The notes under the pieces: model-generated
Databases searched by the model: none
Told to the model about the DNA's origin: nothing
What the model saw: the letters and a program-made list of their open reading frames with translations, nothing else
Shown here: piece by piece, positions 1 through 64,000 of the stretch
How positions within the stretch are numbered: the stretch's first letter is position 1
How the letters are laid out: each line of letters begins with the position of its first letter
From: Serinicoccus profundi
GTDB lineage: Bacteria; Actinomycetota; Actinomycetes; Actinomycetales; Dermatophilaceae
Length of the DNA: 64,000 bases
Assembly (NCBI RefSeq): GCF_008001015.1
Contig: NZ_CP042862.1
Coordinates: forward strand, 124,001 to 188,000
Direction of reading: 5' to 3'
Program-made: the position numbers and the translations under genes

Positions 1-654
1 GGCTTCCACGCGGGCGACGCCCGTACGCTGGAGCGCACGGTCGCGGCCGCCGCCGCGCGGGGGGTCGTCATCGGCGCGCAGGTGGCCTACCGCGACCTCG
101 CGGGCTTCGGTCGGCGCTTCGTCGATGTCGATCCGGCGGACCTCGAGGCCGACGTGCTCTACCAGCTCGGCGCGCTCGAGGCGATGTGCCGCGTCGCCGG
201 GACCCGGGTCGCCTACCTCAAGCCGCACGGGGCGCTCTACCACGCGGTCGGTCGCCACGAGGGCCAGGCGCGGGCGCTGCTGCGCGCGATGAGCAGGTAT
301 GACGTGTCCCTCCCGCTCCTGCACCAGGCGGGATCGCTGGTGTCGGGGCTGGCGCAGGAGGGCGAGGTGCAGGTCGTGGCCGAGGCCTTCGCCGACCGCG
401 GCTACCTGCCGGACGGCACCCTCGTGCCGCGTTTGGAGGACGGCGCCGTGCTGCACGACCCGCAGGCGGTCGCCGCCCGGATGGTCCGGCTCGTGCGGGA
501 CGGGCTGGTGGAGGCGGTCGACGGCTCCGACGTGGCCGTGCAGGTCGCCTCGATCTGCACGCACGGCGACTCCCCGGGGGCGGTCGCGATGGCCCGGGCG
601 GTGCGCTCGGCCCTGGAGGACGACGGGGTCGAGCTCGCCGCCTTCGCCGGGTGA
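1..654 (+). CDS. pxpA: 5-oxoprolinase subunit PxpA (LamB/YcsF family), 5' partial
   Basis: This is the C-terminal part of subunit A of the ATP-dependent 5-oxoprolinase PxpABC, which opens cytosolic 5-oxoproline (pyroglutamate) to glutamate. Frame 1 is open from the first base and encodes GFHAGD, a family motif, so the true start lies upstream of the window and the GTG at 82 is internal. About 217 residues are visible of a usual ~250. Other landmarks are YLKPHGALYH near visible residue 72 and ICTHGD near the C-terminus. The stop overlaps the pxpB start in a GTGA at 651-654, which implies translational coupling of pxpA, pxpB and pxpC. The assignment rests on these motifs plus the gene order. 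Confidence 0.93.
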   Translation, partial: GFHAGDARTLERTVAAAAARGVVIGAQVAYRDLAGFGRRFVDVDPADLEADVLYQLGALEAMCRVAGTRVAYLKPHGALYHAVGRHEGQARALLRAMSRYDVSLPLLHQAGSLVSGLAQEGEVQVVAEAFADRGYLPDGTLVPRLEDGAVLHDPQAVAARMVRLVRDGLVEAVDGSDVAVQVASICTHGDSPGAVAMARAVRSALEDDGVELAAFAG

Positions 655-1343
655 GCGCGGTGGAGGTCACGCTGCTGCCGATGGGTCGGGAGGCCGTGCT
701 CGTGGAGGTGGCGGGGACGGGGGAGGTGCTGGCCCTCGCGGACGCCCTGCACGAGCAGGGCGGGCGGCAGGACGCGCCCACGTGGGTGCGGAGCCTCGCC
801 GAGGTCGTGCCGGCCGCGCGCACCCTGCTGCTGCGCGTCGCCGAGCCCAGGGACGTCCCCGCGGTCCGGGCCGGGGTGGTCACGCTGGCCGCCTCGCTCG
901 ACGTCGCGACCGCCGGGCACCCAGGAGGTCAGGAGCCCGGGGTGGGGCGGGGTGCGCCGGACACGCCGGTGGTGACCCTCCCCGTCACCTACGACGGTGC
1001 CGACCTCGCCGACGTGGCGCGGCTCATCGGGCTGGACGAGCAGGAGGTGGTGGAGGCGCATACGGGGTCGGCCTGGCGGGTGGGCTTCATCGGTTTCGCT
1101 CCCGGCTTCGCCTACCTCGTCGGCGGCGACCCCCGGCTGCACGTGCCCCGCCGCGAGACCCCGCGCACCCGGGTGCCCGCGGGGTCGGTGGGGCTGGCGG
1201 GCGAGTTCGGTGGGATCTACCCCCGCCCCTCGCCGGGCGGCTGGCAGCTCATCGGCCGCACCGAGGTCACCCTGTGGGACCTCGACCGGGACCCTCCGGC
1301 CCTCCTGCAGCCCGGCACGCTCGTGCGCTTCGAGGCGCTCTGA
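651..1343 (+). CDS. pxpB: 5-oxoprolinase subunit PxpB (KipI family)
   Basis: This 230-residue protein matches the KipI-type subunit of 5-oxoprolinase in length and motifs. The carboxyltransferase-like C-terminal half carries GFAPGFAYL (about residues 148-156) followed by PRRETPRTRVPAGSVGLAG, the family signature. It starts with GTG in a 4-base overlap with pxpA and ends in a TGATG junction with pxpC, so the three subunits are read as one operon. KipI homologues also act as kinase inhibitors in Bacillus, but the pxpABC order favours the oxoprolinase role. Confidence 0.93.
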   Translation: MSAVEVTLLPMGREAVLVEVAGTGEVLALADALHEQGGRQDAPTWVRSLAEVVPAARTLLLRVAEPRDVPAVRAGVVTLAASLDVATAGHPGGQEPGVGRGAPDTPVVTLPVTYDGADLADVARLIGLDEQEVVEAHTGSAWRVGFIGFAPGFAYLVGGDPRLHVPRRETPRTRVPAGSVGLAGEFGGIYPRPSPGGWQLIGRTEVTLWDLDRDPPALLQPGTLVRFEAL

Positions 1344-2209: not shown

Positions 2210-2230
2210 GCAGACGGTGGGGGGCATGAG

Positions 2231-2269
2231 GAAGGGCGCGTCGGTCCCGTGACAGCCGACGCGCCCTTC
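2231..2269 (+). terminator. Rho-independent-type hairpin after pxpABC
   Basis: GAAGGGCGCGTCGG at 2231-2244 pairs perfectly with CCGACGCGCCCTTC at 2256-2269 (14 bp stem, 11-base loop). It lies 22 bases after the pxpC stop. There is only a weak T-containing tail (TCTCGT), as is usual in high-GC actinomycetes. The rest of 2210-2507 shows no convincing gene. Confidence 0.8.
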
Positions 2270-2507
2270 TCGTCAGGCAGCCAGCCCCTCCCCGGGGACG
2301 TGGACGAGAACGGGCGCGCAGGGGGGTGTGCCCGCATCCCATCCACGTCGTGTCTGACGTGCCTGGCCGATCAGCAGACGCCGTTGCGAGCGCCTCCGAA
2401 CGACATCTCCACGCTAACCCGGGGTCGGCAAAGACGGGGTATACCGAAGGTAAGGACTTGGTCAAGTCTCACGAGGGCTCCGAGGCCGATGATCAGGAGG
2501 TCTGTCG

Positions 2508-4869: not shown

Positions 4870-7137
4870 GTCGATCCGCCGCTGCCGAAGCTCCCGCCGA
4901 GGGGCCCCGGTGCCATGATCTCGGGCTGGCTCTGCTCCCACGGAGACTCCAGATCGTCGATGGGCACGGGGTCGGTGCCAGGGTAGCCGGGGTCGTCGTA
5001 GACGTTGTCCGGGGCGAACCAGTCGCCATCCTCGCGGTAGGGGATGACCTCACCCCCGGTGATCACCCCGACGAGGTTGGTCCACGAGTCTGTGGGGGGA
5101 GTGACCACCCACCCGTGCGAGTCCGCTCCTTCGAGCCGGTCACCGACCTCGACGCCGTCCGGTAGCGGATCCCTGGAAGAGGGCTCGAGCCACCGACCCG
5201 TCTCCAGACGGGTGAACTGGTCGGTGTCGAGCGGGTCGTTGCCGTGCCCCCAGTCCTCCGGCAGGCCGACCCACCACCGGACGTTCTCCGACTCCTGCGC
5301 GAGGCGGATGGTGTCGCCGGGGGCCGTCATGGTGAACCGTTGGACGTGGCGGTCCTCCCCGTCCCAGGTCTGCGTCGGATAGGACTCCGGGGTGGTGGGC
5401 TGCGCCCCACGGGTCCAGGGGCGGCGGTAGTGGCCGATGAAGCCCCAGTCCCGATCCCGAGGGCGCGATGAGGAGGGTGCGGTCGACGTCGATGCCGTAG
5501 ACGTCGGCGAAGCCGACGATGCCACCCCCCGCCGAGTGGCCGGCCGCCGTGACCGCCCGCTCGGGCATGCCCAGCCCCTCCACGAAGCGCAGCAGCGCCT
5601 GACCACCCTCCTCGGAGTAGCGCGTCTGCGTCGCGTCGGAGGCCACCGAGTCGGGCAGGTCAATGCCCATCCAGGTGATCGTGCTCGTCCCTTGTCGCGC
5701 GACCGACTCCATGTTGTCGGGGTACTTCGCGATGCTGGCCATGTCCGTGGTCGTCCCCGGCACGAAGATCCCGACGTTCTCGCTGTCGAACTCGCCGTGC
5801 CACTCGGCATACCGGCCGTCCCCTCGCGGATCGAAGAGCAGGATCGCCCGCCGGTCGGCGGACAGCACGAGTCCGGCCTCGTCCGTGACGTCGGAGAAAC
5901 GCAGCTCGGGGTCGGGCGTGACCAGCTCTTCGTAGAACTCCAGTCGATCCCGTGACCTCTCCAGCTCCTGGTCACGCAGCCGGAAGTCGTGCAGCATCGT
6001 CTGCGCGCCGTCGCCCATGAGACCGTCGACGAGCTGCTCGCCCAGCCAGTCCGGATACCACCCCGGGAGGCTGTCGAGCACGTCCTCGCGCGTGGTCGCG
6101 TTGTCGGGCAGGGCCTCGAGCAGCGCCAGTCGGCGCTGCTCCAGATCGATGGCGCTCTCGATGAGCAGCTGGTTGGCTGCCGCCCGGTGCTCCACCGGTA
6201 TGCCGTCCAGGCCGCCGATGAGCGTGGGGTAGAGCAGGCGCAGCCGGCGTTGCGCCTCCGGGGTCAGCCCGGCCCAGTAGTCGCGGATCCCCGCGATCGC
6301 CCGGGGGTCGGTGACCTGGCCGTCCTCGAGCTCCCCGATCCGGCTCCACAGCCCGGACAGCACCGGGTCGTCGGCGTTGTGCGGCGCGTAGTCGGTCGCG
6401 AGGGCCGCCATGACGTGCGGGTTGCGCTGAAGGAACCCGGCGAGCCGCTGCGGGTCGAGCTCGTCCAGCAGGGCGCGCACGGCGTTCGGGTCCTCCGCCC
6501 CCGCGATGCGAGCCAGCAGGATCTCATCGGCCCGGCTGTTGACCAGGCCGTGGTCGCGGAAGATCCGCCACGTCCCCTCCGGTGCCTGCGAGCGGGTGAA
6601 GCTCGCGGTGGACGAGCCGGGCTCCAGGCCGGCCAGGGAGGACCGGACCTGGGCCATGGTGTCGCGGCACCCCCGGTCTGCGGTGCGCAGCATCTCCTTC
6701 GGATGGTCGGTGCGCCCGCGCAGGGTGTCCTCCTGACGCCGCACCTCCTCCCAGTCGATGACGCTCACCTGCTCGCCGACATCGCCGCGGACCTCTGTGA
6801 ACGGCCGGTCGGCGTGCAGCGCGTCCCAGTCCCGCTGGATGTCGCGCAACGTCGGGCCGTGGTCGGCCAGCGCCCGCGCCAGGGCGTCGAGAGCGCCGCC
6901 CGCCGCGCGGAGGTCCTCCTGCAGGATCCGTAGTCCGTCCTGAGTCGGGTCGGCAGCGTCGTCGGCGCGGTCGGTGATCTGACCCTCCCAGCCCAGGGCG
7001 GAGGCCGCCTGACCGAGCGTGCGGCGCAGGCCCGCCCGCTCGTCGTCCACGACGTCGGCGGCGTCGCGCAGCCCCCGGGCGGCCGTCCGCAGCGGCTCGG
7101 CGTCGGCGACCATCCAGTCGGGGATCTCCAGGCTCAT
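4866..7137 (-). pseudogene. DUF1023-type alpha/beta hydrolase with N-terminal WXG-like region, frameshifted
   Basis: About 756 residues once corrected. The N-terminus (MSLEIPDWMVADAEPLRTAARGL and following) is helical and resembles proteins handled by type VII secretion. The C-terminal half is a DUF1023 alpha/beta hydrolase with the nucleophile elbow GHSAGG. The frame starting at 7137 reads TLLIAPS and then turns to nonsense; the correct continuation, DRDWGFIGHYRRPW, is in another frame. Removing one C from the CCC at about 5456-5458 (plus strand) restores APSDRDWGF. The C-terminal frame ends in a GTGA overlap with the lipoprotein gene, which supports it. The start forms an ATGA overlap with the 87-residue gene upstream. 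Either a sequencing error in a short C-run or a real lesion. Confidence 0.82.
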
Positions 7138-7532: not shown

Positions 7533-9059
7533 ATGACCCGAGCCAGCGCCAACCTTGCCCACAACCTCGCCACCACGGCGCAGGATCACCCCGACGCGCG
7601 GGCGGTGATCCTCGACGACATGGTGCTGACGTATGCCGACGTCGAGCAGTCCGCACGTCAGCTGGCCGGGTGGCTGCGTGCGCAGGGGATCGGCGAGGGC
7701 GACCGGGTGGCGCTCATGCTCCCCAACGTCCCCGCCTTCCCTGTCCTCTACTACGCGACGCTGCGGCTCGGGGCCGTCGTGGTCCCGATGAACCCGCTGT
7801 TCAAGAAGCGCGAGATCCAGTTCTACCTCGAGGACTCCGGCGCCTCGCTGCTCGCCGCGATGCCCGGCGACGACGCGGTCGCCGCTGCGGAGGCGACCGG
7901 CACCCAGCTGCTCACGGTGGGCCCGGAGGGGCTGAGCGCCTACGTCCACGGTGCGGAGGCGACCGACCCGGTGGAGGAGATCGTGGAGCGCGCCGCCGAC
8001 GACACGGCCGTCATCCTCTACACCTCCGGCACCACGGGCCGACCCAAGGGCGCCGAGCTGACCTGCGACAACCTGCAGACCAACCAGCTCGCGACGACCG
8101 AGACCCTGCTGCACCTCGACTCCTCCGACGTCGTCATGGGCTGCCTGCCGCTCTTCCACGTCTTCGGCATGACGTGCGGCATGAACACCGCCTTCGCGAC
8201 CGGCGCCGCGCTGACGATGATCCCGCGCTTCGACCCGGCCAAGGCGCTGCAGGTCATCGAGCGCGACAAGGTCACCGTCTTCGAGGGGGTGCCGACGATG
8301 TATGGCGCGATGCTGGCCGCCGCGCGCGCCGCCGAGCAGGCGCCGGACCTGTCGACGCTGCGCACCGCCGTGTCGGGCGGGGCCAGCCTGCCGCTGGAGC
8401 TGATGAAGACGTTCGAGGACACCTTCGGGGCGACCATCCTCGAGGGGTACGGCCTCTCCGAGACCTCCCCCGTCGCCTCCTTTAACCACCCGGACGTCGA
8501 GCGTAAGGCCGGCTCGATCGGCATACCGATCCGTGGGGTGGAGCTGAAGCTGGCCGGGCCCGACGGCGCCGAGGTCGGCTCCAGCACGGCGGACGACCCG
8601 CAGATCGGTGAGATCTGCATCCGCGGCGAGAACATCATGAAGGGCTACTGGCAGCGCCCGGACGCGACCGCCGAGGCGATCGACGACGACGGCTGGTTCC
8701 ACTCCGGGGACCTCGCGCGGCGCGACGAGGACGGCTACTACTTCATCGTCGACCGCAAGAAGGACATGATCATCCGCGGCGGGCTCAACATCTACCCGCG
8801 GGAGATCGAGGAGCTGCTCTACGAGCACCCGGCGGTCGCCGAGGCCGCGGTCGTCGGGGTGCCGCACGAGGAGCTCGGCGAGGAGGTCGCGGCCCACGTC
8901 GTGCTCGCCCCCGACGCCCGCGCCACGGAGGAGGAGCTGATCCAGCACGTCAAGGACCAGGTCGCGCCCTACAAGTACCCGCGCACCGTGACCCTCATCG
9001 AGGAGCTGCCCAAGGGCGCGACCGGCAAGATCCTCAAGCGGGAGCTACGTGGTGACTGA
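7533..9059 (+). CDS. long-chain acyl-CoA synthetase (AMP-forming ligase)
   Basis: This 508-residue member of the ANL adenylating superfamily activates a fatty or other carboxylic acid with ATP and CoA. Visible motifs are the P-loop-like YTSGTTGRPKG near residue 163, YGLSETSP near 310, GWFHSGDLARRDEDGYY in the hinge region and PKGATGKILKREL at the C-terminus, with the catalytic Lys. AGGAGG at 7521-7526 precedes the ATG at 7533 by 6 bases, which sets the start. The gene is isolated on the plus strand between two minus-strand type-VII-associated operons. The substrate cannot be told from sequence. Confidence 0.93.
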   Translation: MTRASANLAHNLATTAQDHPDARAVILDDMVLTYADVEQSARQLAGWLRAQGIGEGDRVALMLPNVPAFPVLYYATLRLGAVVVPMNPLFKKREIQFYLEDSGASLLAAMPGDDAVAAAEATGTQLLTVGPEGLSAYVHGAEATDPVEEIVERAADDTAVILYTSGTTGRPKGAELTCDNLQTNQLATTETLLHLDSSDVVMGCLPLFHVFGMTCGMNTAFATGAALTMIPRFDPAKALQVIERDKVTVFEGVPTMYGAMLAAARAAEQAPDLSTLRTAVSGGASLPLELMKTFEDTFGATILEGYGLSETSPVASFNHPDVERKAGSIGIPIRGVELKLAGPDGAEVGSSTADDPQIGEICIRGENIMKGYWQRPDATAEAIDDDGWFHSGDLARRDEDGYYFIVDRKKDMIIRGGLNIYPREIEELLYEHPAVAEAAVVGVPHEELGEEVAAHVVLAPDARATEEELIQHVKDQVAPYKYPRTVTLIEELPKGATGKILKRELRGD

Positions 9060-9383: not shown

Positions 9384-10174
9384 AGCAGGCTCATCCCCAC
9401 GAGGATGGCGAACAGCGGCTCGGACGGGAGCGGGGAGAGGACCACCTCGTCGCCCTCGTCGGTGAGCCGCAGGTGGCCGTGCCGACCGGCGTGGACGCCG
9501 GCGACCCGGTGCTCGGTGTCCGAGGTGAGGGTCCAGGTGAACCACGGCTGGCCCCAGATCTCGCGCAGGTGCTCGTCGGCCCCGGAGGGTGGTGGGGCCG
9601 TCGCGTCGTCGGTCCGTTGCGCCACCAGCTCGCGGGGGAGGCGGTCCGGGGAGAGGGCCATCGGCCACGCCGGCCCGACCTGCAGCCACGCCGCCAGGTC
9701 GGCCGCCAGGTGCATCGTGGGCAGCCACATGAGCGTGCCCGTCGTCGCCGAGGCCAACCGGTCCTTGCCGACCGGCTCGGTGCCGGCCCACGTCTGCGGG
9801 GAGTCCGTCGCCCAGACGACGACGCTGCCGCGCACCCGGGCCGCCTCGTAGGTGCCCGGCACGCCTGCCGCCGCGCTCTCGACCCGGATCCGGCGGTCCG
9901 CCGACCGCAGGAGGGTATGCGTCGACCGCCCGTCCTCGGTGAGTCGGCCGGAGCCGTCGACGAGGCCGGCGTGGTGCAGCTCCTCCACCGCCGCCTCGTC
10001 GCTCACCCGGGGGCCGCGCAGGAGGCCGGCCTCCGCGGCGGCGAACGTCGTGAACGCCGAGCGGGAGAGCGGCATACCCTCCGGGGTCCACGGCTGGGCC
10101 TCGTGCAGCCGGGAGAGGTCCTCGAGATCCTCCCCCTGGCCGCTCCAGAACGGGTCGGTGCGGGGCTCAGCCAC
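9380..10174 (-). CDS. uncharacterised protein, possibly EspG-like type VII secretion chaperone
   Basis: This 264-residue cytosolic-looking protein has an alternating alpha/beta composition. It starts with GTG at 10174 (MAEPRTDPFWSGQ) and overlaps its upstream neighbour by 8 bases and its downstream neighbour by 4. Its size, the DDGRSTHTLL-like segment and its place beside WXG100-like genes suggest an EspG-type ESX chaperone, but I see no decisive motif, so this is a weak inference. No signal peptide or membrane segment is visible. Confidence 0.6.
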   Translation of the reverse strand: MAEPRTDPFWSGQGEDLEDLSRLHEAQPWTPEGMPLSRSAFTTFAAAEAGLLRGPRVSDEAAVEELHHAGLVDGSGRLTEDGRSTHTLLRSADRRIRVESAAAGVPGTYEAARVRGSVVVWATDSPQTWAGTEPVGKDRLASATTGTLMWLPTMHLAADLAAWLQVGPAWPMALSPDRLPRELVAQRTDDATAPPPSGADEHLREIWGQPWFTWTLTSDTEHRVAGVHAGRHGHLRLTDEGDEVVLSPLPSEPLFAILVGMSLL

Positions 10175-12169: not shown

Positions 12170-13177
12170 ATGGTGCAGGGCACGGGGAGACGCCCGACGA
12201 TCTACTCCGTCGCCGATCGCGCAGGGGTCTCCATCGCGACGGTCTCGCGGGTGCTGCGGCGTCCCGGGGAGGTGCGCGCCGCCACCCGCGACAAGGTGCT
12301 GGCCGTCGTCGACGAGCTGGGCTACGTGCCGGACGGCGCCGCACGCTCGCTCGCGGTCAAGTCGCACGAGGCGCACGGCCTGGTGCTCCCGGAGCTGGGC
12401 GGGCCCTACTACGCCGACCTGCTCACGGGGTATGAGCAGGGGGCGGCCGAGGGGGGCGCGAGCGTCGTCGTGCTCCTCACCGAGGGCAAGGACGACGTCG
12501 ACCTGCTCGTGCGCCGACTGGCCGGCCGGGTGGACGGCATGGTGCTCATGGGTGCGGTGCCCGTGTCGCCCGGCACCGTCGCCGCGGTGCGGGCCAAGCT
12601 GCCCGTGCTGGGGCTGGCCAACAGCCACGAGGAGTCGGTCGAGAGCTTCAGCACCGAGAACCTCCGGAGTGCCCAGGCGCTGACCACCCACCTCATCGAG
12701 GTCCACGGGCGGCGGGCGCTGCGCTTCGTGGGGTCACCGGAGTTCGCCGACGACGTGCAGGAGAGGTATGCCGGTTTCGTCGCCGCGCACGAGGCGGCCG
12801 GTCTCGCGGCGGCCGAGCCGGTGCCCGCGACCTTCCGCGAGGACGGCGGCCCCCGGGTGGTGTCCCTGCTCGTCGACGGCGGCCCGGAGGCGGACGGGGT
12901 GGTCTGCGCCAACGACGAGCTCGCCCTGTCGGTGATGCGCGGGCTCCTCGCGGCCGGGGTCAGGGTGCCCGAGCAGATGAGCGTGACCGGCTGGGACGAC
13001 GTCATGGCTGCGCGCTACGTCACGCCGGGCCTGACCACGGTGAGCCAGCCGGTCCGTGAGCTCGGCCGGGAGGTCGCGGTGCGGATGCGGGCCCTGCTGG
13101 AGGACCGTGACTCGGCCCCCGAGCAGCACGTCCTCCCCACGCGGCCGGTCATCCGGCAGTCCTGCGGCTGTTCCTGA
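12170..13177 (+). CDS. LacI-family transcriptional regulator
   Basis: This 335-residue regulator has an N-terminal LacI helix-turn-helix (TIYSVADRAGVSIATVSRVL, residues 10-29) and a periplasmic-binding-protein-like ligand domain ending in conserved PVIRQSCGC. I chose the ATG at 12170, preceded by GAAAGGG, because the HTH should lie close to the N-terminus; the same frame is open upstream from 12104. It is immediately upstream of and co-directional with a sugar ABC importer and glycosidases. A perfect palindrome GTAAGCGCTTAC sits in the promoter of that operon at 13224-13235. It therefore most likely represses the importer operon until a sugar binds. Confidence 0.93.
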   Translation: MVQGTGRRPTIYSVADRAGVSIATVSRVLRRPGEVRAATRDKVLAVVDELGYVPDGAARSLAVKSHEAHGLVLPELGGPYYADLLTGYEQGAAEGGASVVVLLTEGKDDVDLLVRRLAGRVDGMVLMGAVPVSPGTVAAVRAKLPVLGLANSHEESVESFSTENLRSAQALTTHLIEVHGRRALRFVGSPEFADDVQERYAGFVAAHEAAGLAAAEPVPATFREDGGPRVVSLLVDGGPEADGVVCANDELALSVMRGLLAAGVRVPEQMSVTGWDDVMAARYVTPGLTTVSQPVRELGREVAVRMRALLEDRDSAPEQHVLPTRPVIRQSCGCS

Positions 13178-43734: not shown

Positions 43735-43790
43735 ACCGCAGACCCTAGTCACCCCAGGCTGGCCGGGCGCACGTCGCCTAGGCTTGCGGC

Positions 43791-50269: not shown

Positions 50270-50318
50270 CACGAGGTATGCCCCGGGCCGCAGGTGCGGC
50301 GCCGGGGCATGTCTCGTG
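50270..50318 (+). terminator. hairpin terminator after the CFA-type operon
   Basis: CACGAGGTATGCCCCGG at 50270-50286 pairs with CCGGGGCATGTCTCGTG at 50302-50318 (15 of 17 positions) around a 15-base loop. It is 53 bases after the stop. The left arm includes a perfect GGTATGCC octamer. The rest of 50218-50508 shows promoter-like sequence but no gene. Confidence 0.75.
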
Positions 50319-50508: not shown

Positions 50509-51237
50509 GTGGGGAGCGTGAATCCGGTCACAGAGCTGCGTGCCTTCCTGCGGGCCGCCCTGGTCACGCCGGTGCCGCGCGACCACCGTGACCCGCCGCA
50601 GGTCCTGCGCCGCCGGCGCGTCGTGTCGGTCCTCACCCTGCTGGCCGGCGCCGCCCTGCTGTGGTGGTCGCTGCAGCTCGAGCCGGGCAACCCGTGGTTC
50701 TACCTCGGCACGACCGCCCTCGCGGGCGTGTGGGTCGTGGGGGCCTTCGCGTCCGGGCGTCTCTACCTCGGCCGGGGGCATACCCGTGGCGGCCACTACG
50801 CCCGGCCGATCGTGCAGTCGCTGGCCCTGGGGCTCCTGCTGCTCGCGCTCTTCCTCGCCGGCGCCCTGGTCGTGGCCCGCGTCCCGGTGCTGGCCGGGCC
50901 GGTCGACGACCTGCTCGACCACGCGAGGTTCGCCTCCCTGCCGCTCGTCCTGCTCATCACCGTGGTCAACGGCATCGCCGAGGAGATCTTCTTCCGCGGC
51001 GCGCTCTACGCCGCGATCCCGCAACGGTGGACGGTGCTCGCCACCACCGCCGTGTATGCCCTCGCCACCGTCGGCTCCGGCGTGCCCCTCCTCGTCTTCG
51101 CCGCCGTCGTCATCGGCCTCGTGTGCGGGCTGCAGCGCCGGGTCACCGGCGGGATCCTCGGCCCGGCCATCACGCACGTCACCTGGTCCGCCGGGATGCT
51201 CCTGCTCCTCCCTCCCCTCCTACAGATCGTGAGCTGA
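50509..51237 (+). CDS. CPBP-family intramembrane metalloprotease
   Basis: This protein of about 240 residues has six to seven transmembrane segments and the CPBP motifs: the EExxxR-type AEEIFFRGALYAAI near residue 155 and a His in PAITHVTWSAGM near residue 226. These residues form the intramembrane metal site. Starts GTG 50509 and GTG 50518 are both possible; neither has an ideal ribosome binding site. It is followed after 3 bases by an NAD(P)-binding protein. Its substrate is unknown. Confidence 0.85.
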   Translation: MGSVNPVTELRAFLRAALVTPVPRDHRDPPQVLRRRRVVSVLTLLAGAALLWWSLQLEPGNPWFYLGTTALAGVWVVGAFASGRLYLGRGHTRGGHYARPIVQSLALGLLLLALFLAGALVVARVPVLAGPVDDLLDHARFASLPLVLLITVVNGIAEEIFFRGALYAAIPQRWTVLATTAVYALATVGSGVPLLVFAAVVIGLVCGLQRRVTGGILGPAITHVTWSAGMLLLLPPLLQIVS

Positions 51238-51240
51238 CCC

Positions 51241-52170
51241 ATGACCGCATCGACCCCTGACACGCGACGGGCCCTGGTGACCGGGGCCACCGGCTACATC
51301 GGCGGGCTCATGGTGCCGCGCCTGCTGGAGGCCGGGCATACCGTCCGCGTGCTCACCCGCTCGGCCGACAAGCTCCCGCAGGAGTGGGCGGACCGGGTGC
51401 AGGTCAGCGAGGGTGACGCGAGCGAGCGCTCCGACCTCGAGTCCGCGCTCGCCGACGTCGACCTGGCCTACTACTTCATCCACTCGATGGACGGCTCGGG
51501 CGACTTCGTGGAGCGCGACCGCAGGTTGGCTCGCGAGTTCGGTCGTGCGGCGCGGGAGGCCGGTGTCGGGCGGATCGTCTACCTCTCCGGGCTGCACCCC
51601 CAGGGCAAGCTCTCCAAGCATCTGGCCTCCCGGGTCGAGGTCGGCGAGATCCTCATGGCCTCCGGTGTCCCGACCGCCGTCCTCCAGGCGGCCACCGTCA
51701 TCGGGTCGGGCTCGGCGAGCTTCGAGATGCTGCGCCACCTCACCAAGCGGCTGCCGGTCATGGTGGCCCCCAAGTGGCTCAAGAACCGGATCCAGCCGAT
51801 CGGGATCGACGACGTGCTGCACTACCTCGTGGCCGCCGCCGACCTGCCCCCGGAGGTCAACCGCACCTTCGACATCGGCGGCCCCGACGTGCTGACCTAC
51901 CGCGCGATGATGCAGGGCTTCGCGGAGGAGACCGGCCTGGCGCACCGGCTCATCGTCACCGTGCCGGTGCTCACCCCGTGGTTGGCCAGCCACTGGGTCG
52001 GCCTGGTCACCCCGGTCGACGCGGGGGTCGCCAAGCCGCTCGTCGGCTCGCTGGTCCACGAGGTCGTGTGCCAGGAGGACGACCTGCGCGACCTCGTCGG
52101 TGCACCCCCCGGCGGGGCGACGCCCTACCGCGACGCGGTCCGCGCCGCCGTGGGTGGGGCCCGTCGGTAG
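51241..52170 (+). CDS. NAD(P)-binding atypical SDR (NmrA/epimerase-like)
   Basis: This 309-residue protein begins with ALVTGATGYIGGLMVPRLLE, a Rossmann motif of extended or atypical SDRs, and has YYFIHSMDGSGDFVERDR and YLSGLHPQGKLSKHLASR in place of a canonical YxxxK. A C-terminal region with PEVNRTFDIGGPDVLTYRAM follows. It is probably a nucleotide-sensing or oxidoreductase protein rather than a sugar epimerase. It is co-transcribed with the CPBP gene. Confidence 0.88.
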   Translation: MTASTPDTRRALVTGATGYIGGLMVPRLLEAGHTVRVLTRSADKLPQEWADRVQVSEGDASERSDLESALADVDLAYYFIHSMDGSGDFVERDRRLAREFGRAAREAGVGRIVYLSGLHPQGKLSKHLASRVEVGEILMASGVPTAVLQAATVIGSGSASFEMLRHLTKRLPVMVAPKWLKNRIQPIGIDDVLHYLVAAADLPPEVNRTFDIGGPDVLTYRAMMQGFAEETGLAHRLIVTVPVLTPWLASHWVGLVTPVDAGVAKPLVGSLVHEVVCQEDDLRDLVGAPPGGATPYRDAVRAAVGGARR

Positions 52171-53191: not shown

Positions 53192-54156
53192 TCGTCACGC
53201 TCACGCCCAACCCGGCGATCGACCTCACCTACCGGGTCGACCGGCTGCACGTGGGGGAGTCCGCCCGCGTCGACGCCCCGGCCCGACGGGCGGGGGGCAA
53301 AGGGGTCAACACCGCGGCGGTGCTCACCCTCATGGGGGTCCCGGCGCTCTCGGTCGTGCACCTCGACGCGGCGACGGCGTCGTGGTGGGGGGCGCAGCTG
53401 GAGGAGCGGGGGATCGGCTCCCGCGTCGTGGTCGTGGACGACCCCTACCGGACCGGCGCCAGCGTCGCCGTCGTGGACGATCAGGGCGCCGCGACGGTCC
53501 TCAACGAGCCTGGTGCGGCTCCGCCGCCGCAGGTATGGCGTGCGCTGTCGGGTCTCGTCCTGGAGCAGCTGGAGCACCCTGCCGACCCCGGCAGCCGCCA
53601 CGTGCTCGCCCTCTGCGGGAGCCTGCCCGAGGGGCTGGCCCCGGCGGCCGTCGGGGCGCTGGTCGCCGAGGCCGGGCGGCGCTGGGCGGCGGTCGTCGTC
53701 GACGGCTCGGCGCGGCCCTGGAGGCCGCCCTGCCCGCGCGCCCGGCCGTGGTCAAGCCCAACCAGGCCGAGGCCGCCGCCACCACCGGGCGAGGTCGACC
53801 CGGTGGCCTCCGCCAGGGCGCTGGTGGCCGCTGGTGCGCGAGCCGCGCTCATCAGCTGCGGTGCGGACGGCGTCGTGCTCGTCTCCGGGGAGGGGGCCGC
53901 GGAGGTGGTGCGGACCGCACGCCCCGGCGAGCGACTCACCGGCAACCCGGCCGGTGCCGGGGACGCCGCGACCGCGGCGGTCGCCGCCCACCTGGCCGGC
54001 GTCGGCATACCGGACCACGACGCGCTGCTGCGCGACGTCGTCGCGTGGTCGGCGGCCGCCGTGCTCTCCCCGCTGGCCGGTGACCTCGACCCCGCCGACG
54101 TGGCCCGGCAGCGGCCACTCGTCCGGCTCGACGGGCCACCCCCGACCTCCGCGTGA
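53188..54156 (+). CDS. PfkB-family phosphofructokinase/tagatose-6-phosphate kinase with a compensated frameshift
   Basis: This 322-codon frame encodes a PfkB kinase of the 1-phosphofructokinase/tagatose-6-P type: MIVTLTPNPAIDLTYRVDRL at the N-terminus, GGKGVNTAAVL, and the catalytic GNPAGAGDAATAAVAAHL near residue 254. Between about 53709 and 53789 the frame reads Pro/Arg-rich nonsense, while the alternative frame gives GAALEAALPARPAVVKPNQA, the expected family segment. A missing G near 53709 and a balancing extra base near 53789 explain it. The GTG start overlaps the ROK gene as GTGA. The kinase probably feeds the aldolase downstream. Confidence 0.85.
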   Translation: MIVTLTPNPAIDLTYRVDRLHVGESARVDAPARRAGGKGVNTAAVLTLMGVPALSVVHLDAATASWWGAQLEERGIGSRVVVVDDPYRTGASVAVVDDQGAATVLNEPGAAPPPQVWRALSGLVLEQLEHPADPGSRHVLALCGSLPEGLAPAAVGALVAEAGRRWAAVVVDGSARPWRPPCPRARPWSSPTRPRPPPPPGEVDPVASARALVAAGARAALISCGADGVVLVSGEGAAEVVRTARPGERLTGNPAGAGDAATAAVAAHLAGVGIPDHDALLRDVVAWSAAAVLSPLAGDLDPADVARQRPLVRLDGPPPTSA

Positions 54157-56816: not shown

Positions 56817-57502
56817 TCGGCCTCACCTGGCAGTGGCTCACCGATCCCGCCACCTGGACCGGCCCCGGCGGCATCCTCGCCCAGAGCCTCACGCACCTGC
56901 GGATCTCGCTCATCGCTCTGGTGCTCGCGGCGCTGGTCGCGGTGCCGGTCGGCCTCTTCATCGGGCATACCGGCCGCGGTCGCTGGCTGGCGATCAACCT
57001 CGCCGGTGCGTTCCGGGCGATCCCCTCGCTCGGCGTGCTCTTCGTCGCCACCCTCATCCTGCTGCCCCGGCTCGAGGGTGACCTGGCCTTCGAGCTGCCG
57101 GTCATCCTCGTCCTCGTCCTGCTCGCCGTCCCGCCGATCCTCTCGGGCACCTATGCCGGGGTGGAGGCGGTCGACCCCGCCGCGCGTGATGCCGCCCGGG
57201 GCGTGGGGATGACCGAGGCCCAGATCCTGTGGCAGGTGGAGGTCCCGGCGGCACTGCCGTTGCTGCTCTCCGGGCTGCGCTCGGCCATGCTGCAGATCAT
57301 CGCCACCGCCACCATCGCCGCGATCGTCGGGATCGGCGGGCTCGGGCGCTACCTCATCGACGGGCAGGCCTCGCGCCAGTACGACGTCATGGCTGGGGGA
57401 GCGATCGTCGTGGCGCTGCTGGCGCTGCTCGTCGACCTCGTCATGGCCGGGATCCAACGGCTCGTCGTCTCACCCGGGCTCGTGGTGGCCAAGGAGCACT
57501 GA
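56813..57502 (+). CDS. OpuC-type ABC transporter permease (second)
   Basis: This 229-residue membrane protein is homologous in layout to the first permease: AINLAGAFRAIPSLGVLFVA, DPAARDAARGVGMTEAQILW (EAA loop) and a Gly-rich GIGGLGRYLIDG. Two permeases, one ATPase and one binding protein form an OpuC-type importer. The ATG overlaps the previous stop as ATGA. Confidence 0.92.
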   Translation: MIGLTWQWLTDPATWTGPGGILAQSLTHLRISLIALVLAALVAVPVGLFIGHTGRGRWLAINLAGAFRAIPSLGVLFVATLILLPRLEGDLAFELPVILVLVLLAVPPILSGTYAGVEAVDPAARDAARGVGMTEAQILWQVEVPAALPLLLSGLRSAMLQIIATATIAAIVGIGGLGRYLIDGQASRQYDVMAGGAIVVALLALLVDLVMAGIQRLVVSPGLVVAKEH

Positions 57503-57604
57503 TGGCGCACCGATCTCGTGACCACATCGTGACCTGGGCGCGGCATACCGCGCTCGGGCCGGACGTTTGACCAAGCAACCGAACCCCACCGGGAGGACCC
57601 CCTC

Positions 57605-58553: not shown

Positions 58554-59432
58554 TCAGCGCCGCAGGAGGTCGCGCGACACGGTGCGCGCGGCCTCCACGG
58601 CGGAGGGTGGCAGCGGGGTGCCGAGTGCGCGGTCGGCCGTGCCGTGGCCCCCGACCCACGCCCGCAGGGTGGGGTGGGACTCCTCGAGGCTCGCGATGAG
58701 CTCGGCCGCCGCCTCGGCGTCCCGGGGCATCGGCACCGAGACCACCACCCCGGCGGGGTTCAGGGTCCGGACCGAGTGCTCCCAGCTGGCGTGCGGGACA
58801 TCCGCGCCGAGGAAGCGCACGTCGATGCCCTGCCGGCGCAGGCAGACGGCGAAGGCCAGCGCCCCGAGCTGGTGCAGCGCCCCCGCAGGCAGGCCCACGA
58901 GCGCGACGGGCGCGCCCTCGTTGAGCCCGGCTGCGTCGAAGGCCGCCGAGAGGCGTCGGTGGACGGCGGCCGACACGAAGTGCTCGCTGCCGACGTCGAC
59001 CTCCCCCCGCTCCCAGGCCCGACCCAGCTCGGTGAGGGCGGGCATGAGCCAGCCCTCCAGCGCGTGCTCGAAGGACACCTTGGACAACGCGCGGTCGAGC
59101 ACCCGGGTGAGCAGCTGCTGGTCGTAGCGCTGGGCGGCCTCGATGAGGTCGGCGACCGGCGGTCCGTCCACGCTGCGGAACTCGGCGGTGGCGTTCTGCA
59201 CCGACTCCTCGTCCCGCACCTGGGTGGCCGCGAGCGAGGCCGGGCTCCCCTCGCGGACGAGCTCGGCCATACGGGTGAGGCGGCGCACGTCGGCCTGGTC
59301 GTAGAGCCGGTAGCGCGAGGAGCTGCGCTGCGGGGCGACGACGGCATACCGACGCTCCCAGGCACGCAGGGTGGCCGGTGCCACACCGGTGAGATCCGCC
59401 ACCTGCTTGACGGTGTAGCGCGCCTGCCCCAT
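58554..59432 (-). CDS. MerR-type regulator with cobalamin-binding domain (CarH/LitR-like photoreceptor)
   Basis: This 292-residue protein has a MerR helix-turn-helix at residues 7-50 (VKQVADLTGVAPATLRAWER) and a B12-binding unit. Trp140, Glu150 and His151 reproduce the W-x9-EH motif of CarH, and His187 in GALHQLG matches the lower axial ligand of adenosylcobalamin. These are the residues used in CarH to sense light. ATG 59432 is chosen because a longer frame from 59483 would cover the repeat operator. Repression in the dark and release by light is the known mode of the family; the target genes here are inferred. Confidence 0.9.
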   Translation of the reverse strand: MGQARYTVKQVADLTGVAPATLRAWERRYAVVAPQRSSSRYRLYDQADVRRLTRMAELVREGSPASLAATQVRDEESVQNATAEFRSVDGPPVADLIEAAQRYDQQLLTRVLDRALSKVSFEHALEGWLMPALTELGRAWERGEVDVGSEHFVSAAVHRRLSAAFDAAGLNEGAPVALVGLPAGALHQLGALAFAVCLRRQGIDVRFLGADVPHASWEHSVRTLNPAGVVVSVPMPRDAEAAAELIASLEESHPTLRAWVGGHGTADRALGTPLPPSAVEAARTVSRDLLRR

Positions 59433-59517: not shown

Positions 59518-60640
59518 TCAGGACCGTGGCTCCGGGCCCCCTTCGAGCGTCAGCTCCTCGCCCGCCACCGTGACCCCCTGCAGGCGCCACTGACGCGGCA
59601 GCACCCCCGACGGGTCGGTCCGCACGACCCCGCCCGGCACGTCGACCTCCAGCCCGACGGCGGCGGTCATGAGGACGCCGGCGGTCGCGGCCGACCACGC
59701 CTGCGGCCGGCATGACGCGGGGTAGGGCACCGCGGTGGACCCCAGGGGCTCACCGGAGGTGAGCTCCGGGAAGCGCCCGTCCACGGCCTGGGCCAGTCGC
59801 AGCAGCGCCTCGATGACGATGTCCGCCTCGGCCCGGTGACCGGTGGCGACCAGGCCGCGCAGCGCGATCGCGGTGTCGTGGGTCCAGACCGATCCGGTGT
59901 GGTAGCCGAGCGGGTTGTAGGCCGGGTTGTCCGCGGACAGCGTGGCCACGCCGAAGGGGGTGAGCAGGTCGGGTCGCATGAGCCGGCGGACGACGCGTGC
60001 CGACTCCTCCTCGGTGAGCAGGCCCGTCTCCAGGACGTGCCCCATGTTGGACCCGACGCCATCGACCGGGCGTCCGTCGCGGTCCAGCGCCATGGCGAGG
60101 TAGGCCTCCTCGCCCGAGCCGACCCAGAAGTGGTCGCGGACCCGACCGGCCAGGGCGTCCGCCCACGAGCGCCACCCGGCGGGGTCGCCCTCGCCGAGCG
60201 CCTCGAGGAGCCGGGCCGCGCCGCGGGCAGCTTCCACGGCATACCCCTGGGCCTCGAGCAGGGCGATGGGGGCCGGGGCGATGCTGCCGTCGGCGCGGCG
60301 CATGGCGTCGCCGGAGTCCTTCCACCCCTGGTTGGACAGGCCGTGCCCGGAGTCGTCGAGGTAGCGCAGCAGGCCGTCCGTGGACTGCGCGACGCTGCGC
60401 TCCATCCAGCCCAGCGCCGCCTGGAGGGTGGGGAGGAACTCGCGCAGGCCCTCGGTGGGCAGGCCGAACCGCCACGTGTCGTGCAGCAGGCAGATCCACA
60501 GCGGGGTGGCGTCGACCGTGCCGTAGTAGAGCGGCGGCAGCGCGATCTCGTGGTCCTCGAAGGAGGCGCGCCGCACCTCGTGCAGGATCTTGCCGACCTC
60601 CGCCGCGGTGGCCAGGTCGTGCGTCTCGCCGGTGAGGATG
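59518..60640 (-). pseudogene. amylo-alpha-1,6-glucosidase (glycogen debranching enzyme), 5'-truncated
   Basis: About 370 C-terminal residues of a debranching enzyme are left: VGKILHEVRRASFED, YYGTVDATPLWICLLHD, KDSGDAMRRADGSIAP, NPLGYHTGSVWTHDTAIALR and RPQAWSAATAGVLM. The N-terminal ~300 residues (including the debranching N-domain) are absent; upstream of about 60632 the frame runs into a 52-bp tandem repeat that translates to HAQASSPPQPPRAGRIGARA-type repeats. So the gene has no proper start. Probably a relic after deletion or rearrangement at the repeats; a misassembly at the repeat is the alternative. Confidence 0.82.
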
Positions 60641-60880: not shown

Positions 60881-60921
60881 CACCCCGCGCTCCCGGCACG
60901 CTCCGCACCAGGTATGCCGAA

Positions 60922-60949: not shown

Positions 60950-61010
60950 CTCGTGCGTTCAGACCGGGGTGCTCACCCGGCGCTGGTGGCGCCGGGTGTG
61001 ACCGCGTGCC

Positions 61011-63710
61011 TCACAGACCGTCGACGCGGCTCTCCGGAGCGGTGAGGTCCGGGTTGGCGCGCAGGTAGTCCACCAGGTTGGCGAGATCCTCCGGGCCGCC
61101 GACGAGGTTGGTGCCCTCGGTGAAGGCGGTGAAGCTGTCGCCGCCCTGCTGGAGGAAGTTGAGGGTCGAGACCCGGTAGGTCTGATCCATCTCCAGCGCC
61201 ACGCCGTCGAGCTGCATGTCGCTCACCTTGCTGCCCTCGGGCTGCTCGTCGTCCCACGTGTAGGTGAAGCCCTCGGAGACGCCGAGCGCGAGGTACTGAC
61301 GGCCGCGGTCCGGGACGAACTGCTGCTCCAGGACCGCCTTGATGTCGGCACCGGTCATGTCGATCGACACGAGGATGTTGCCGAACGGCATGACGTCGTA
61401 GGCCTCCTGGTAGGTGACCTCACCGGGCGCCTCCTCGTTGCTGATCTCGTCGACGAGCAAGCTGTCGCGCACGCCACCGACGTTCATGAAGGAGATCTGT
61501 GCGCCACCCTCGTCGTCACCGTCGGTGCCGTAGAGGATGGAGTCGGCGATGAGGTCGGCCATCGGGGTCTCGATGCCGCGGTCGCCACCGGCGTCACCGG
61601 TGATGTCCTCGACGACGGTGCCGACGACCTCGCCGCCGAGCACCTCGCCACGGGCGACCCACTTGTCGACGGCGGCAGCCATCTCCGGGTCGTCGTCGAT
61701 CGACTGGAGCACGAGGTTGTTGTCGGCGTAGGCCCGCTCGCGGATCACGTCACCGCTCTCGCGGGAGATGGTGAGCGCGGTCTCGGTCACCACCCGGCCG
61801 TACTGGTTGGCGCTGGTGACCAGGCGGTCGGCGCCGGACGGGTCGGGGATCGAGCAGACGTAGGGCTCGTGGGTGTGGCCGGTGACGACCGCGTCGATGG
61901 CGGGGTCGAGGTTCTCGGCGATCTCCACGACCGGGCCCGAGACGCCCTCGCACTCACGGTAGGTCCCGCTCTGGTAGCCGCCCTCGTGCAGCAGCACGAC
62001 GATCGACTCCACGCCCTGCTCGCGCAGTTCGGCGGCCTGGGCGTTGGCGGTCTCGACCTCGTCGAGGAACTCGACGCTGGCCACGCCACCGGGGCTGACT
62101 AGGGTGGGGGTCTCCTCCAGGGTCATCCCGATGAAGCCCACGTCGACATCGTCGACGGTGCGGACCTCGGTCGCCGGCAGGACGGACTCGCCGGACTCCT
62201 TGTCCACGACGTTGGCGGCGAGCCACTGGAAGTCGGCGCCGTCGTAGGGCTCCTCCTCGAAGCAGCCGCGCTCGGGGTGGCAGCCGCCGTTCTGCATCCG
62301 CAGCAGCTCCTCGACACCCTCGTCGAACTCGTGGTTGCCGACACCGGAGATGTCCAGCCCCGCGATCTCGAGGGTCTCGACCGACGGCTCGTCCTGGAAG
62401 AGGCCGGAGACGAAGGTCGACCCGCCGATGAGGTCACCCGCGGCGACCGTCAGCGACTGCTCGTCGAAGGAGCGGGTGCGCAGCGCATCCAGCGTGGAGC
62501 TGAGGTTGACCGCGCCGCCGACGAGGTTCTGGTCGGGGTCCTGCTCCTCGTCGAGCGTGCCGTCCTCCTCCTCGATGTGCCCGTGGTAGTCGTTGAACGA
62601 CAGCATCTGGACGACGAGCTCGTCGACCCAGAGCGGCAGCCAGGTGTTGAGCGGGGTGGCGACGCCGAGCTCGCTCAGCGCACCCTCCCCACCGAAGAGG
62701 ACGACGCCCTGAGGAGAGAGGCGGTCGAGCGCGGCGACGGTCGGCTCGGGCACGCTGTCCGCGCGGCTGAGCAGCAGCGGACCACCGTGGTATGCCGCGA
62801 GGGCGCCGCCGGTGAGCGCGTCCGGGTAGTTCTCGCCGCTGGCGACGTAGGCCACCGAGTCGAACTCGTAGGAGGCGGCGAGGGCGACGGCCGTCTCGTA
62901 GCGGTTGGCGCCGAAGACCCGGGTCGTGTCGGGGACCAGGGCGGTGACCGACTCGACGACCTCGTCGGAGACGGCGCCGGAGCCACCGAGGACGACCACG
63001 GACTGCGGCTGCAGCGCCTCGATCGCGTCGGCGGTGCTGGGGCGCAGGGTGTCCGGGTCGGTGAGCAGCATCGGTGCGCCGTCGCGCCCGGCGCGGGCTC
63101 CACCCGTGAGGGCGTCCGGGAAGTCGGTGCCGGTCGCGAGGTAGAGGACGGGCAGGCCGGTCGGGAAGAGGGAGGCGATCTCCGCGGAGGTGTCGTAGCG
63201 GTTCTCCCCGGAGATCCGCACCACCTCGGCGCCGAAGCTCTCAAGCTCGGCCTCGACGTCCGCGGAGATGGCGACGGTGCCACCCACGATGATGATCTGG
63301 CTCGGGGCGAGGTCGGTGAGTGCGGACGCGGTCGCGCCGGGCAGGGCGTCCTGCTTGGTGAGCAGCATGGGCACCGGCAGGCCGGCGCCGTCGGCGTCCG
63401 GACGGGCCATGCCACCGGCGGCACCGGCGGAGGTGGAGGGCATCTGCGCGCTCAGCGCGTCGGGGAAGACCTCGCCGGAGGCGACGACTATGGTGTCGGT
63501 CGCGTCCGCGGGGAAGGCGCGGGCGATCTCGGCGGCGGTCTCGTAGCGGTCGGTGCCCGCGATGCGGTGCACCTGGGTCGGGTCCTCGATCTCGGGGGCT
63601 GTCGGCAGGCTGGGCGCGCTCGTCGCGGCGACCGCTCCGCCACCGACGAGGGCGACCGCTGCGCCGACGGCCACGAGACCACGACGTGCGGAGGGGGTTC
63701 GGGGGGACAT
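61011..63710 (-). CDS. secreted protein with three cell-wall-binding repeats and a 5'-nucleotidase/metallophosphatase
   Basis: This 899-residue protein begins with a Sec signal (RRGLVAVGAAVALVGGGAVA). Residues about 45-345 hold three CWB2-type repeats, each with an R-[IV]-x-G-x-[ND]-RY-[ED]-T phrase: RIAGTDRYETA, RISGENRYDTS, VFGANRYETA. Residues about 368-640 are a calcineurin-like phosphatase domain with FNDYHGHI, GNHEFD and GHTHEPY metal ligands, followed by a 5'-nucleotidase C-terminal domain (about 690-860). It should hydrolyse extracellular nucleotides or cyclic nucleotides while bound to the wall. Start ATG 63710 has GAGGAG upstream. Confidence 0.92.
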   Translation of the reverse strand: MSPRTPSARRGLVAVGAAVALVGGGAVAATSAPSLPTAPEIEDPTQVHRIAGTDRYETAAEIARAFPADATDTIVVASGEVFPDALSAQMPSTSAGAAGGMARPDADGAGLPVPMLLTKQDALPGATASALTDLAPSQIIIVGGTVAISADVEAELESFGAEVVRISGENRYDTSAEIASLFPTGLPVLYLATGTDFPDALTGGARAGRDGAPMLLTDPDTLRPSTADAIEALQPQSVVVLGGSGAVSDEVVESVTALVPDTTRVFGANRYETAVALAASYEFDSVAYVASGENYPDALTGGALAAYHGGPLLLSRADSVPEPTVAALDRLSPQGVVLFGGEGALSELGVATPLNTWLPLWVDELVVQMLSFNDYHGHIEEEDGTLDEEQDPDQNLVGGAVNLSSTLDALRTRSFDEQSLTVAAGDLIGGSTFVSGLFQDEPSVETLEIAGLDISGVGNHEFDEGVEELLRMQNGGCHPERGCFEEEPYDGADFQWLAANVVDKESGESVLPATEVRTVDDVDVGFIGMTLEETPTLVSPGGVASVEFLDEVETANAQAAELREQGVESIVVLLHEGGYQSGTYRECEGVSGPVVEIAENLDPAIDAVVTGHTHEPYVCSIPDPSGADRLVTSANQYGRVVTETALTISRESGDVIRERAYADNNLVLQSIDDDPEMAAAVDKWVARGEVLGGEVVGTVVEDITGDAGGDRGIETPMADLIADSILYGTDGDDEGGAQISFMNVGGVRDSLLVDEISNEEAPGEVTYQEAYDVMPFGNILVSIDMTGADIKAVLEQQFVPDRGRQYLALGVSEGFTYTWDDEQPEGSKVSDMQLDGVALEMDQTYRVSTLNFLQQGGDSFTAFTEGTNLVGGPEDLANLVDYLRANPDLTAPESRVDGL

Positions 63711-64000
63711 GCGTTGAGTTCTCCTCGCGGGGGGATGTGCGTCGCGAACTCGTCACTGAGCCCGCCGGTAGCAACGTAGCCCATGGAGACCGTCCGTCAC
63801 CCGACGAAAAGGTCACGGTCCGGTGAACGCGGGCGGTCGGCCAGCCGCGGCCAGTGGGGCACGTGTAACGTATGTGGTTGTTGGGGTTCGTGGGGAAGTG
63901 CGCAGTCACGAGTTGGCAAAGATTGGCAGACGGGGGTACCGCGCACGAGGGGGCCGACGTAGGCTTCCGACCAGCGTCGAGTCCTACCTGCGGGTGGCGT
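63711..64000. other. intergenic region, no gene seen
   Basis: This 290-base stretch lies upstream of the nucleotidase gene and runs to the window end. It is less GC-rich than average. The direct repeat TTGGCA at 63913 and 63923 (10-base period) could be a regulatory site. No reading frame here looks coding. Confidence 0.5.

Follow-up and report, generated by a model that had tools for sequence, protein, structure and literature searches.

Why should a single eight-base word recur again and again along a chromosome, on both strands and in every reading frame, and what might read it? The question is raised by the word GGCATACC in a stretch of 64,000 nucleotides of Serinicoccus profundi, hereafter the window, which covers bases 124,001-188,000 of a one-contig genome of 3,475,711 bases. 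A preliminary description of the window had counted about 30 perfect copies by eye; exact matching gives 31 (on the + strand, 19 as GGCATACC and 12 as its complement GGTATGCC; Table 1), all at the listed positions apart from a single slip of coordinate (50778, which should read 50777). By analogy with the DNA uptake sequences (DUS) and uptake signal sequences (USS) of other bacteria, we assign a probability of about 0.5 to the reading that the word, in the extended form R-CGGCATAC-C (R is a purine), is a genome-wide self-DNA recognition signal for DNA exchange in the Dermatophilaceae as delimited in GTDB.

The over-representation claimed for the window is real: the 31 copies compare with 0.71 expected from 100 dinucleotide shuffles (largest value 3) and with 2.1 expected from a third-order Markov model, under which GGCATACC is the top-scoring octamer of the window. 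In the whole genome there are 837+858 = 1,695 copies, a density of about one copy per 2 kb in resident DNA, against 11+13 = 24 copies of the reversed word, which is thus 70 times rarer. Most of the other statistics refer to a sample of 864 kb (the window plus 40 stretches of 20 kb, 25% of the genome), in which 465 copies were found versus 28.5 expected from the third-order Markov model; the next octamer that does not overlap the word, CTGCGCGA, occurs 319 times versus 100. Genes were predicted with a simple, purpose-made gene finder (coding fraction 0.85; some of the copies called intergenic may sit in missed genes), and a codon null was obtained by redrawing synonymous codons in the 813 predicted genes. 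The genes contain 360 copies, more than 20 times the 13-16.5 left after the redraws, so that the counts lie far above both the Markov and the codon expectation and are not confined to one frame. High GC content and strong codon bias could in principle make such an excess, as a compositional or codon-usage artefact. We give this explanation practically no chance, given the synonymous null, the rarity of the reversed word, the use of both senses and the excess outside genes.

Selection, or drive, acts on DNA rather than on protein, as the preliminary description had proposed. The 360 genic copies are split between sense (169) and antisense (191; p = 0.27), fall in all frames, and are read as GIP (53), GMP (26), xHT (39, with 26 RHT and 13 GHT), xAYx (77), xYA (154) and xVCx (11), in agreement with the readings, such as GIP, that had been made by eye. 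Outside predicted genes there are 105 of the 465 copies, on only 14.6% of the sample sequence (p = 5e-6); the two window copies described as intergenic (50275 and 60911) do lie between predicted genes. An RNA-level role was rejected on the lack of sense bias. The strand skew relative to oriC and ter that had been considered is also absent. With the origin placed near base 1, where dnaA- and dnaN-like genes were recognised by eye (stretch L001), and the terminus assumed near 1.65 Mb from GC skew, the sample contains 231 leading-type and 234 lagging-type copies, and the outcome is the same for the three other terminus positions tried.

Taken as a fixed octamer, the word had been described only in part: the octamer is enriched, but the real unit is longer and graded, and is better written R-CGGCATAC-C with a strict CATAC. 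The logo of the 463 copies with full flanks reads R-C-GGCATACC, with C at position -1 in 360 of them, A (167) or G (158) at position -2, little beyond, and no flanking AT tracts. In the predicted genes of the sample, CGGCATACC occurs 281 times versus 8.8 under the synonymous null and ACGGCATACC 114 times versus 2.0. The outer bases are tolerant of change and the CATAC core is not. A substitution at the last base leaves a 6-12 fold enrichment over the codon null, five of the six variants at the first two bases are enriched 2-5 fold (the sixth, AGCATACC, is found once versus 6.9), and variants within CATAC are at 0 to 1.4 of expectation; GGCATACA (12x), TGCATACC (5x) and GGCGTACC (0.08x) exemplify the gradation. 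This profile is not that of a transition-dominated decay; it resembles the tolerance of a factor by which the word is recognised. Mutational conversion of GGCGTACC into GGCATACC through deamination of GTAC was considered as the sole cause of the excess, GGCGTACC being depleted 12-fold (7 versus 83). It was rejected, because other NATAC words show no increase (GATAC, 59 versus 330) and GTAC is itself mostly avoided, so that conversion alone fails to explain the excess.

The copies are not placed independently of each other. Pairs on the same strand at less than 1 kb number 74 versus 121 expected, while pairs on opposite strands number 143 versus 121 (p = 3e-6); the same-strand ratio rises from 0.26 below 100 bp through 0.48, 0.62 and 0.71 up to 1 kb, and is 1.05 beyond. 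When 442 octamers present in 250-800 copies in this sample are ranked by the share of pairs within 1 kb that lie on the same strand, GGCATACC comes out lowest and CGGCATAC next (0.34 and 0.36, against a median of 0.54). The trend is reproduced with CGGCATAC in 100 kb from each of five other genomes (pooled same-strand pairs 50 versus 91, opposite-strand pairs 103 versus 91, p = 2e-5), with individual p-values of 0.0015 (G188), 0.049 (G163), 0.053 (G007, with GGCATACC), 0.20 (G157) and 0.34 (G135). Since avoidance is limited to the same strand, each strand appears to be served separately. One copy per about 1 kb of a strand seems enough, and the strand specificity of the spacing suggests that the word is read on a single strand. 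Among neighbouring copies, 243 are in opposite orientation and 181 in the same, in accord with the same-strand avoidance. The variance/mean ratio of the copies is 0.92 in 1 kb bins and 1.13 in 10 kb bins. Convergent pairs are as numerous as divergent ones, and only one pair among 424 gaps is closer than 20 bp, on which grounds terminator hairpin pairs were rejected.

How far does the word extend among relatives? Ten proteins of the window gave no housekeeping gene, and LeuS of stretch L012 was used as marker instead. The nearest named LeuS sequences are those of Ornithinimicrobium sp. CNJ-824 and O. pekingense (77%), with other members of what we take to be the same family, the Dermatophilaceae of GTDB, coming next. 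LeuS loci contain the word in Ornithinimicrobium, Intrasporangium, Phycicoccus, Flexivirga and one unassigned metagenome-assembled genome (L098), and lack it in Janibacter indicus, Austwickia and Ornithinicoccus; 67 further loci (L100-L166, 1.42 Mb, nearly all labelled actinobacteria) hold 12 copies versus 9 of the reversed word. Across 186 genomes of the family, the density of CGGCATACC is above 40 per Mb in 107, at most 12 in 65 and between these values in 14; by genus median the corresponding numbers are 29, 19 and 5 of 53 genera, and within one genus copy number spans 38 to 2,180. In 22 genomes from other families of the order the top count of GGCATACC is 111 (G045, control 24). Runs of N aside, the word is the top octamer in all five of the other word-rich genomes sampled, as GGCATACC in G007 and as CGGCATAC in four. 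Individual copies are also better kept in relatives than octamers with the same pattern of strong (S) and weak (W) bases: unchanged among the aligned window copies are 16 of 24 in G007 (31% of 77 matched octamers), 12 of 24 in G011 (20% of 84) and 5 of 14 in G021 (19% of 59).

Three genomes are without the word inside genera whose median exceeds 40 per Mb, and each has another abundant octamer. In G022, which belongs to the same GTDB genus as the Serinicoccus genome and is Ornithinicoccus halotolerans EGI 80423 (contig identical over 8,504 bases), the top octamer is GCCGCTAC (117 versus 24.9 in genes), and GCCGCTACC has 292+333 = 625 copies versus 22-148 in the 185 other family genomes; GCCGCTAC and CCGCTACC match the same copies there, and a count summed over the two patterns was disregarded. 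In G065 it is CGGTCTAC (34 versus 5.1), with 418+441 = 859 copies versus 150-232 in four congeners and 76-329 in 20 other genomes. In G140, CGCCGTAC is first or second depending on the ranking (104 versus 30.2), with 1,536+1,581 = 3,117 copies versus 193 and 429 in two congeners and 80-520 in 19 others. GCCGCTAC, CGGTCTAC and CGCCGTAC all end in TAC, as does CGGCATAC, and from this likeness we infer that the replacement words may be dialects of the same system. An early result on spacing in G022 (3 same-strand versus 15 opposite-strand pairs within 1 kb, in 147 kb) failed when 283 kb were added. CCCCCTTCG in G108 is a doubtful candidate for a dialect: it is enriched (30 versus 3.7-4.5) but has neither same-strand avoidance nor TAC. 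In the five stretches of that genome (L050-L054) it has no clear strand skew and is possibly a signal of another kind. In the word-less G139 (L223-L227) the top octamer is CCGCATCG (64 versus 17.9), which could be a further dialect without TAC or something unrelated.

The word is unevenly distributed over genes of different GC content. Its density is 0.23/kb in genes below 68.3% GC and about 0.6/kb above 72.4% GC. The largest gaps without the word or a close form were listed for the sample, and 20 proteins from five of them were scanned; integrase or transposase genes occur in 4 of the 6 largest (Table 1). GTAC is avoided (543 versus 1,758) unless an A precedes it or a T follows it. Words of the form BGTACV (B, not A; V, not T) are at 0.12-0.27 of expectation, an avoidance of 4-8 fold, AGTAC is at 0.77, and GTACT contexts are nearly tolerated. 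As other TA words are low too (TATA 0.11, CTTA 0.17, GATA 0.29), the avoidance of GTAC may not have one cause. Across the family the ratio GGTACC/CCATGG falls as word density rises (rho = -0.78 for the 53 genus medians and -0.68 for the 186 genomes, kinship being ignored); within the own genus the correlation is +0.29 and not significant, and G065 is low in both. BGTACV words occur at 0.23-0.34/kb within 1 kb of a copy and at 0.94/kb beyond 4 kb; the gaps with mobile genes may explain this rarity near copies.

These observations can be interpreted in terms of DNA uptake. Among the functions that the preliminary description had listed (a Chi-like, uptake-like, nucleoid-organising or methylation motif, or a word kept by restriction avoidance), the uptake-like one is best supported, by the distribution of the word, its graded tolerance and the replacement words. 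The signal would be used in natural transformation, in the recombination that follows it, or in both. A sequence-specific protein would prefer DNA that bears the word, and repeated preferential uptake or recombination would multiply it until about one copy stood in every 2 kb; loss or alteration of the preference would let the word erode, and lineages with a changed preference would come to carry the dialects CGGCATAC, GCCGCTAC, CGGTCTAC and CGCCGTAC, with the TAC end kept. The reader of the word would accordingly be a component of DNA uptake, and one copy per strand on each imported fragment would suffice. By analogy with Micrococcus luteus, the uptake machine may be a Tad/Flp pilus. ComEC was found in all 58 genomes searched (in the own genome, G000, at 1,054,769, behind a ComEA-like gene) and TadE-like pseudopilins in all 45 searched. 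Two neighbouring TadE-like matches of the own genome, at 203,635-204,232, lie about 16 kb past the end of the window and are presumably part of a Tad/Flp pilus locus; further matches are at 489,448 and 2,225,292. ComP, the DUS receptor, belongs to type IV pili. A classical type IV pilus system of the Neisseria kind was rejected on the near absence of PilT (2 of 186 genomes), ComP itself not having been searched for. Strong PilT/PilB-like matches were seen in G142, G203, G035 and G106, the other family members matching the PilT model weakly.

Several observations weigh against DNA uptake as the function of the word. ComEC and TadE are equally present in word-less genomes and hence do not predict the word, nor does RecC: none of the three separates word-bearing from word-less genomes. 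Only 2 of 186 genomes, the own genome not among them, score above the cut-off of the PilT model, and no account of competence in this family came up in literature searches. Uptake that is blind to orientation, as passages of PMC1939737 describe for Haemophilus influenzae, where uptake is the same for either orientation of the uptake sequence, would not give a strand-specific avoidance. Genes of low GC still have 11 times the copies of their own null, and codon typicality has no matching trend: density is 0.45/kb for the tenth of genes with the least typical codon usage, 0.62 for the middle of the range and 0.35 for the tenth with the most typical usage. The sole window copy that could be aligned in G022 is changed. 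The replacement words fall short of the main word in enrichment, at 4.7x (G022), 6.7x (G065) and 3.4x (G140) in genes; other octamers nearly match them in G065 (CGAGCAGC) and G140, and the reversed word of GCCGCTACC is itself common in G022 (257). Their common TAC end was spotted post hoc, without a statistical test, and no TAC-ended octamer is among the best listed for G178, G108, G206 and G139 (100 kb each, from word-less genera). Nor do they clearly obey the spacing rule. In G022 there are 6 same-strand versus 20 opposite-strand pairs within 500 bp (p = 0.009) but 23 versus 33 within 1 kb, and a second, independent part has an excess of same-strand pairs at 500-1000 bp (16 versus 8.8); CGCCGTAC in G140 lacks same-strand avoidance (27 versus 30 pairs), and the pairs in G065 are too few to show any rule.

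The main rival, which we consider unlikely but ahead of the others, is a word like the highly iterated palindrome HIP1 of cyanobacteria. Such a word would be made and kept by a DNA methyltransferase, possibly via methylation-dependent mismatch repair, without any role in uptake, and replacements would follow a change of methyltransferase. According to PMC4390886, HIP1 is an abundant octamer with strong variation between genomes, replacement words in exceptional strains and one-base deviations biased to the outer bases; the word described here likewise tolerates change at its outer bases and is replaced in three strains, and restriction or methylation might lie behind the avoidance of BGTACV in these same genomes. 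HIPs are palindromic, however, whereas GGCATACC and its three replacements are not, and a duplex methylation site would not obviously leave the two strands independent in spacing. Restriction avoidance by itself offers no explanation for an excess.

Next in rank, and improbable in our view, comes a Chi-like signal for a directional helicase-nuclease other than RecBCD, for example AdnAB, with one strand serving each direction of end processing. Avoidance on the same strand only fits a directional signal, because + and - copies would serve different ends, and the copies are conserved in orthologous sequence; the spread of copy number within one genus fits poorly. The word is denser than Chi in Escherichia coli. 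For the RecBCD form, 41 genomes were searched for RecC, which scored above its cut-off in 9 of the 20 that are word-rich and in 12 that are word-less, and went unmatched in the word-rich G034, G064, G092, G095, G101, G130, G133, G155, G161, G173 and G192. According to PMC8022716, Chi is recognised by RecC, is polarised to the leading strand, and has neighbours that share a strand above chance, while the copies described here are balanced between replichores and tend to alternate; we therefore reject RecBCD Chi as an explanation for the family as a whole. A word of chromosome architecture, such as an FtsK-orienting polar sequence (KOPS), an architecture-imparting sequence (AIMS), or the site of a translocase or nucleoid protein, would agree with the length of an octamer, its abundance and the slightly even spacing in 1 kb bins. 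KOPS are biased in strand toward the terminus. AIMS are defined, in passages of PMC5993296, by a leading-strand bias that rises toward it. No strand bias exists at any of the four terminus positions assumed, and in this 25% sample these replichore counts rule out KOPS, AIMS and skewed Chi, which makes the nucleoid-organising function very improbable.

A more specific form of the self-recognition reading, which we advance only tentatively, takes the strands into account. Each strand would have its own set of copies, about one per kb being enough; the word would be read on a single strand, either the one imported by ComEC or one exposed by end processing or repair; dialects would vary around a TAC core, and BGTACV would be avoided alongside, as if the process were attracted by one word and repelled by another. 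We know of no described DUS, Chi, KOPS or HIP that combines these strand-resolved, dialect and avoidance features.

If the uptake reading is correct, it predicts that a Gram-positive family found in soil, sea and sludge is naturally transformable and has a sequence-specific DNA receptor that is not part of a type IV pilus. Donor DNA could be given the word as an aid to cloning, and the question of selection or molecular drive would gain a second, independent case. To our knowledge genome-wide uptake sequences have been described only in two Gram-negative families, and no DUS-like signal is known in Actinomycetota; in the open-access full texts searched, for the word and for uptake sequences in Actinobacteria, no description of the word came up. 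With 186 genomes, three natural switches of word and a strand-specific spacing rule, these predictions can be tested now.

Table 1. Exact copies of GGCATACC in the window (window coordinates), followed by the largest word-free gaps of the 864 kb sample.
Feature	Position	Strand	Basis or content
GGCATACC copy	5806..5813	+	exact match
GGCATACC copy	6197..6204	-	exact match
GGCATACC copy	8520..8527	+	exact match
GGCATACC copy	10071..10078	+	exact match
GGCATACC copy	12765..12772	-	exact match
GGCATACC copy	13463..13470	+	exact match
GGCATACC copy	15421..15428	-	exact match
GGCATACC copy	15793..15800	-	exact match
GGCATACC copy	18276..18283	+	exact match
GGCATACC copy	18780..18787	+	exact match
GGCATACC copy	19734..19741	+	exact match
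GGCATACC copy	20315..20322	+	exact match
GGCATACC copy	20538..20545	-	exact match
GGCATACC copy	21328..21335	+	exact match
GGCATACC copy	24095..24102	-	exact match
GGCATACC copy	28401..28408	+	exact match
GGCATACC copy	35342..35349	-	exact match
GGCATACC copy	43730..43737	+	exact match
GGCATACC copy	44340..44347	-	exact match
GGCATACC copy	46949..46956	+	exact match
GGCATACC copy	48714..48721	-	exact match
GGCATACC copy, between predicted genes	50275..50282	-	exact match and gene calls
GGCATACC copy	50777..50784	+	exact match
GGCATACC copy	51335..51342	+	exact match
GGCATACC copy	54004..54011	+	exact match
GGCATACC copy	56964..56971	+	exact match
GGCATACC copy	57542..57549	+	exact match
GGCATACC copy	59343..59350	+	exact match
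GGCATACC copy	60238..60245	+	exact match
GGCATACC copy, between predicted genes	60911..60918	-	exact match and gene calls
GGCATACC copy	62789..62796	-	exact match
Gap, 11 kb word-free	L015, 4,866-14,125		two tyrosine recombinases, three transposases, weak BrnT-like match below cut-off
Gap	L039		one ISL3 transposase amid metabolic genes
Gap	L028		IS110 and two Mutator fragments beside GTPase YchF
Gap	end of L001		one Mutator transposase
Gap (one of the other two)			gyrB- and gyrA-like genes (by eye); proteins unscanned
Gap (one of the other two)	1,657,067		proteins unscanned

Among known systems, RecBCD Chi resembles the word in being an octamer with strand-specific behaviour and differs from it in replication polarity, which is lacking here, and in its dependence on RecC, the word being found in genomes without a RecC match. 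HIP1 and the alternate HIPs of cyanobacteria share its abundance, its tolerance at the outer bases and its strain-specific replacements (PMC4390886), and are unlike it in being palindromic; HIPs are tied to methyltransferases. Micrococcus luteus, a member of the same phylum, which transforms with comEA/comEC and Flp/Tad pili (PMC4322843 and PMC8467076), is similar in that comEC, a ComEA-like gene and TadE-like genes are present; the term 'uptake sequence' is absent from those two papers. Uptake sequences are named for the Pasteurellaceae and Neisseriaceae in PMC7811141. The USS of the Pasteurellaceae are comparable in density, in spacing near 1 kb and in lack of orientation bias (PMC1939737 and PMC7811141); the word lacks their flanking AT tracts, and USS uptake is blind to orientation, whereas here the strands are independent. 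From the DUS of the Neisseriaceae the word differs in its host, a member of the Actinomycetota, in a core of TAC instead of CTG, in its strand-specific spacing, in the rarity of a PilT-type pilus and in the lack of terminator hairpins. The likenesses to DUS (PMC2397512, PMC3630211 and PMC1939737) nevertheless take in most of what distribution can tell: a short non-palindromic word at about one copy per 1-2 kb (1,888-2,245 DUS in Neisseria genomes of 2.2-2.3 Mb, PMC2397512), spaced on the scale of conversion fragments, without replichore bias and in excess outside genes (PMC1939737), less frequent in genes of low GC, as DUS are in low-GC transferred genes of Neisseria (PMC2397512), and with a graded effect around a three-base core that lineage dialects have in common (CTG in the Neisseriaceae, PMC3630211).

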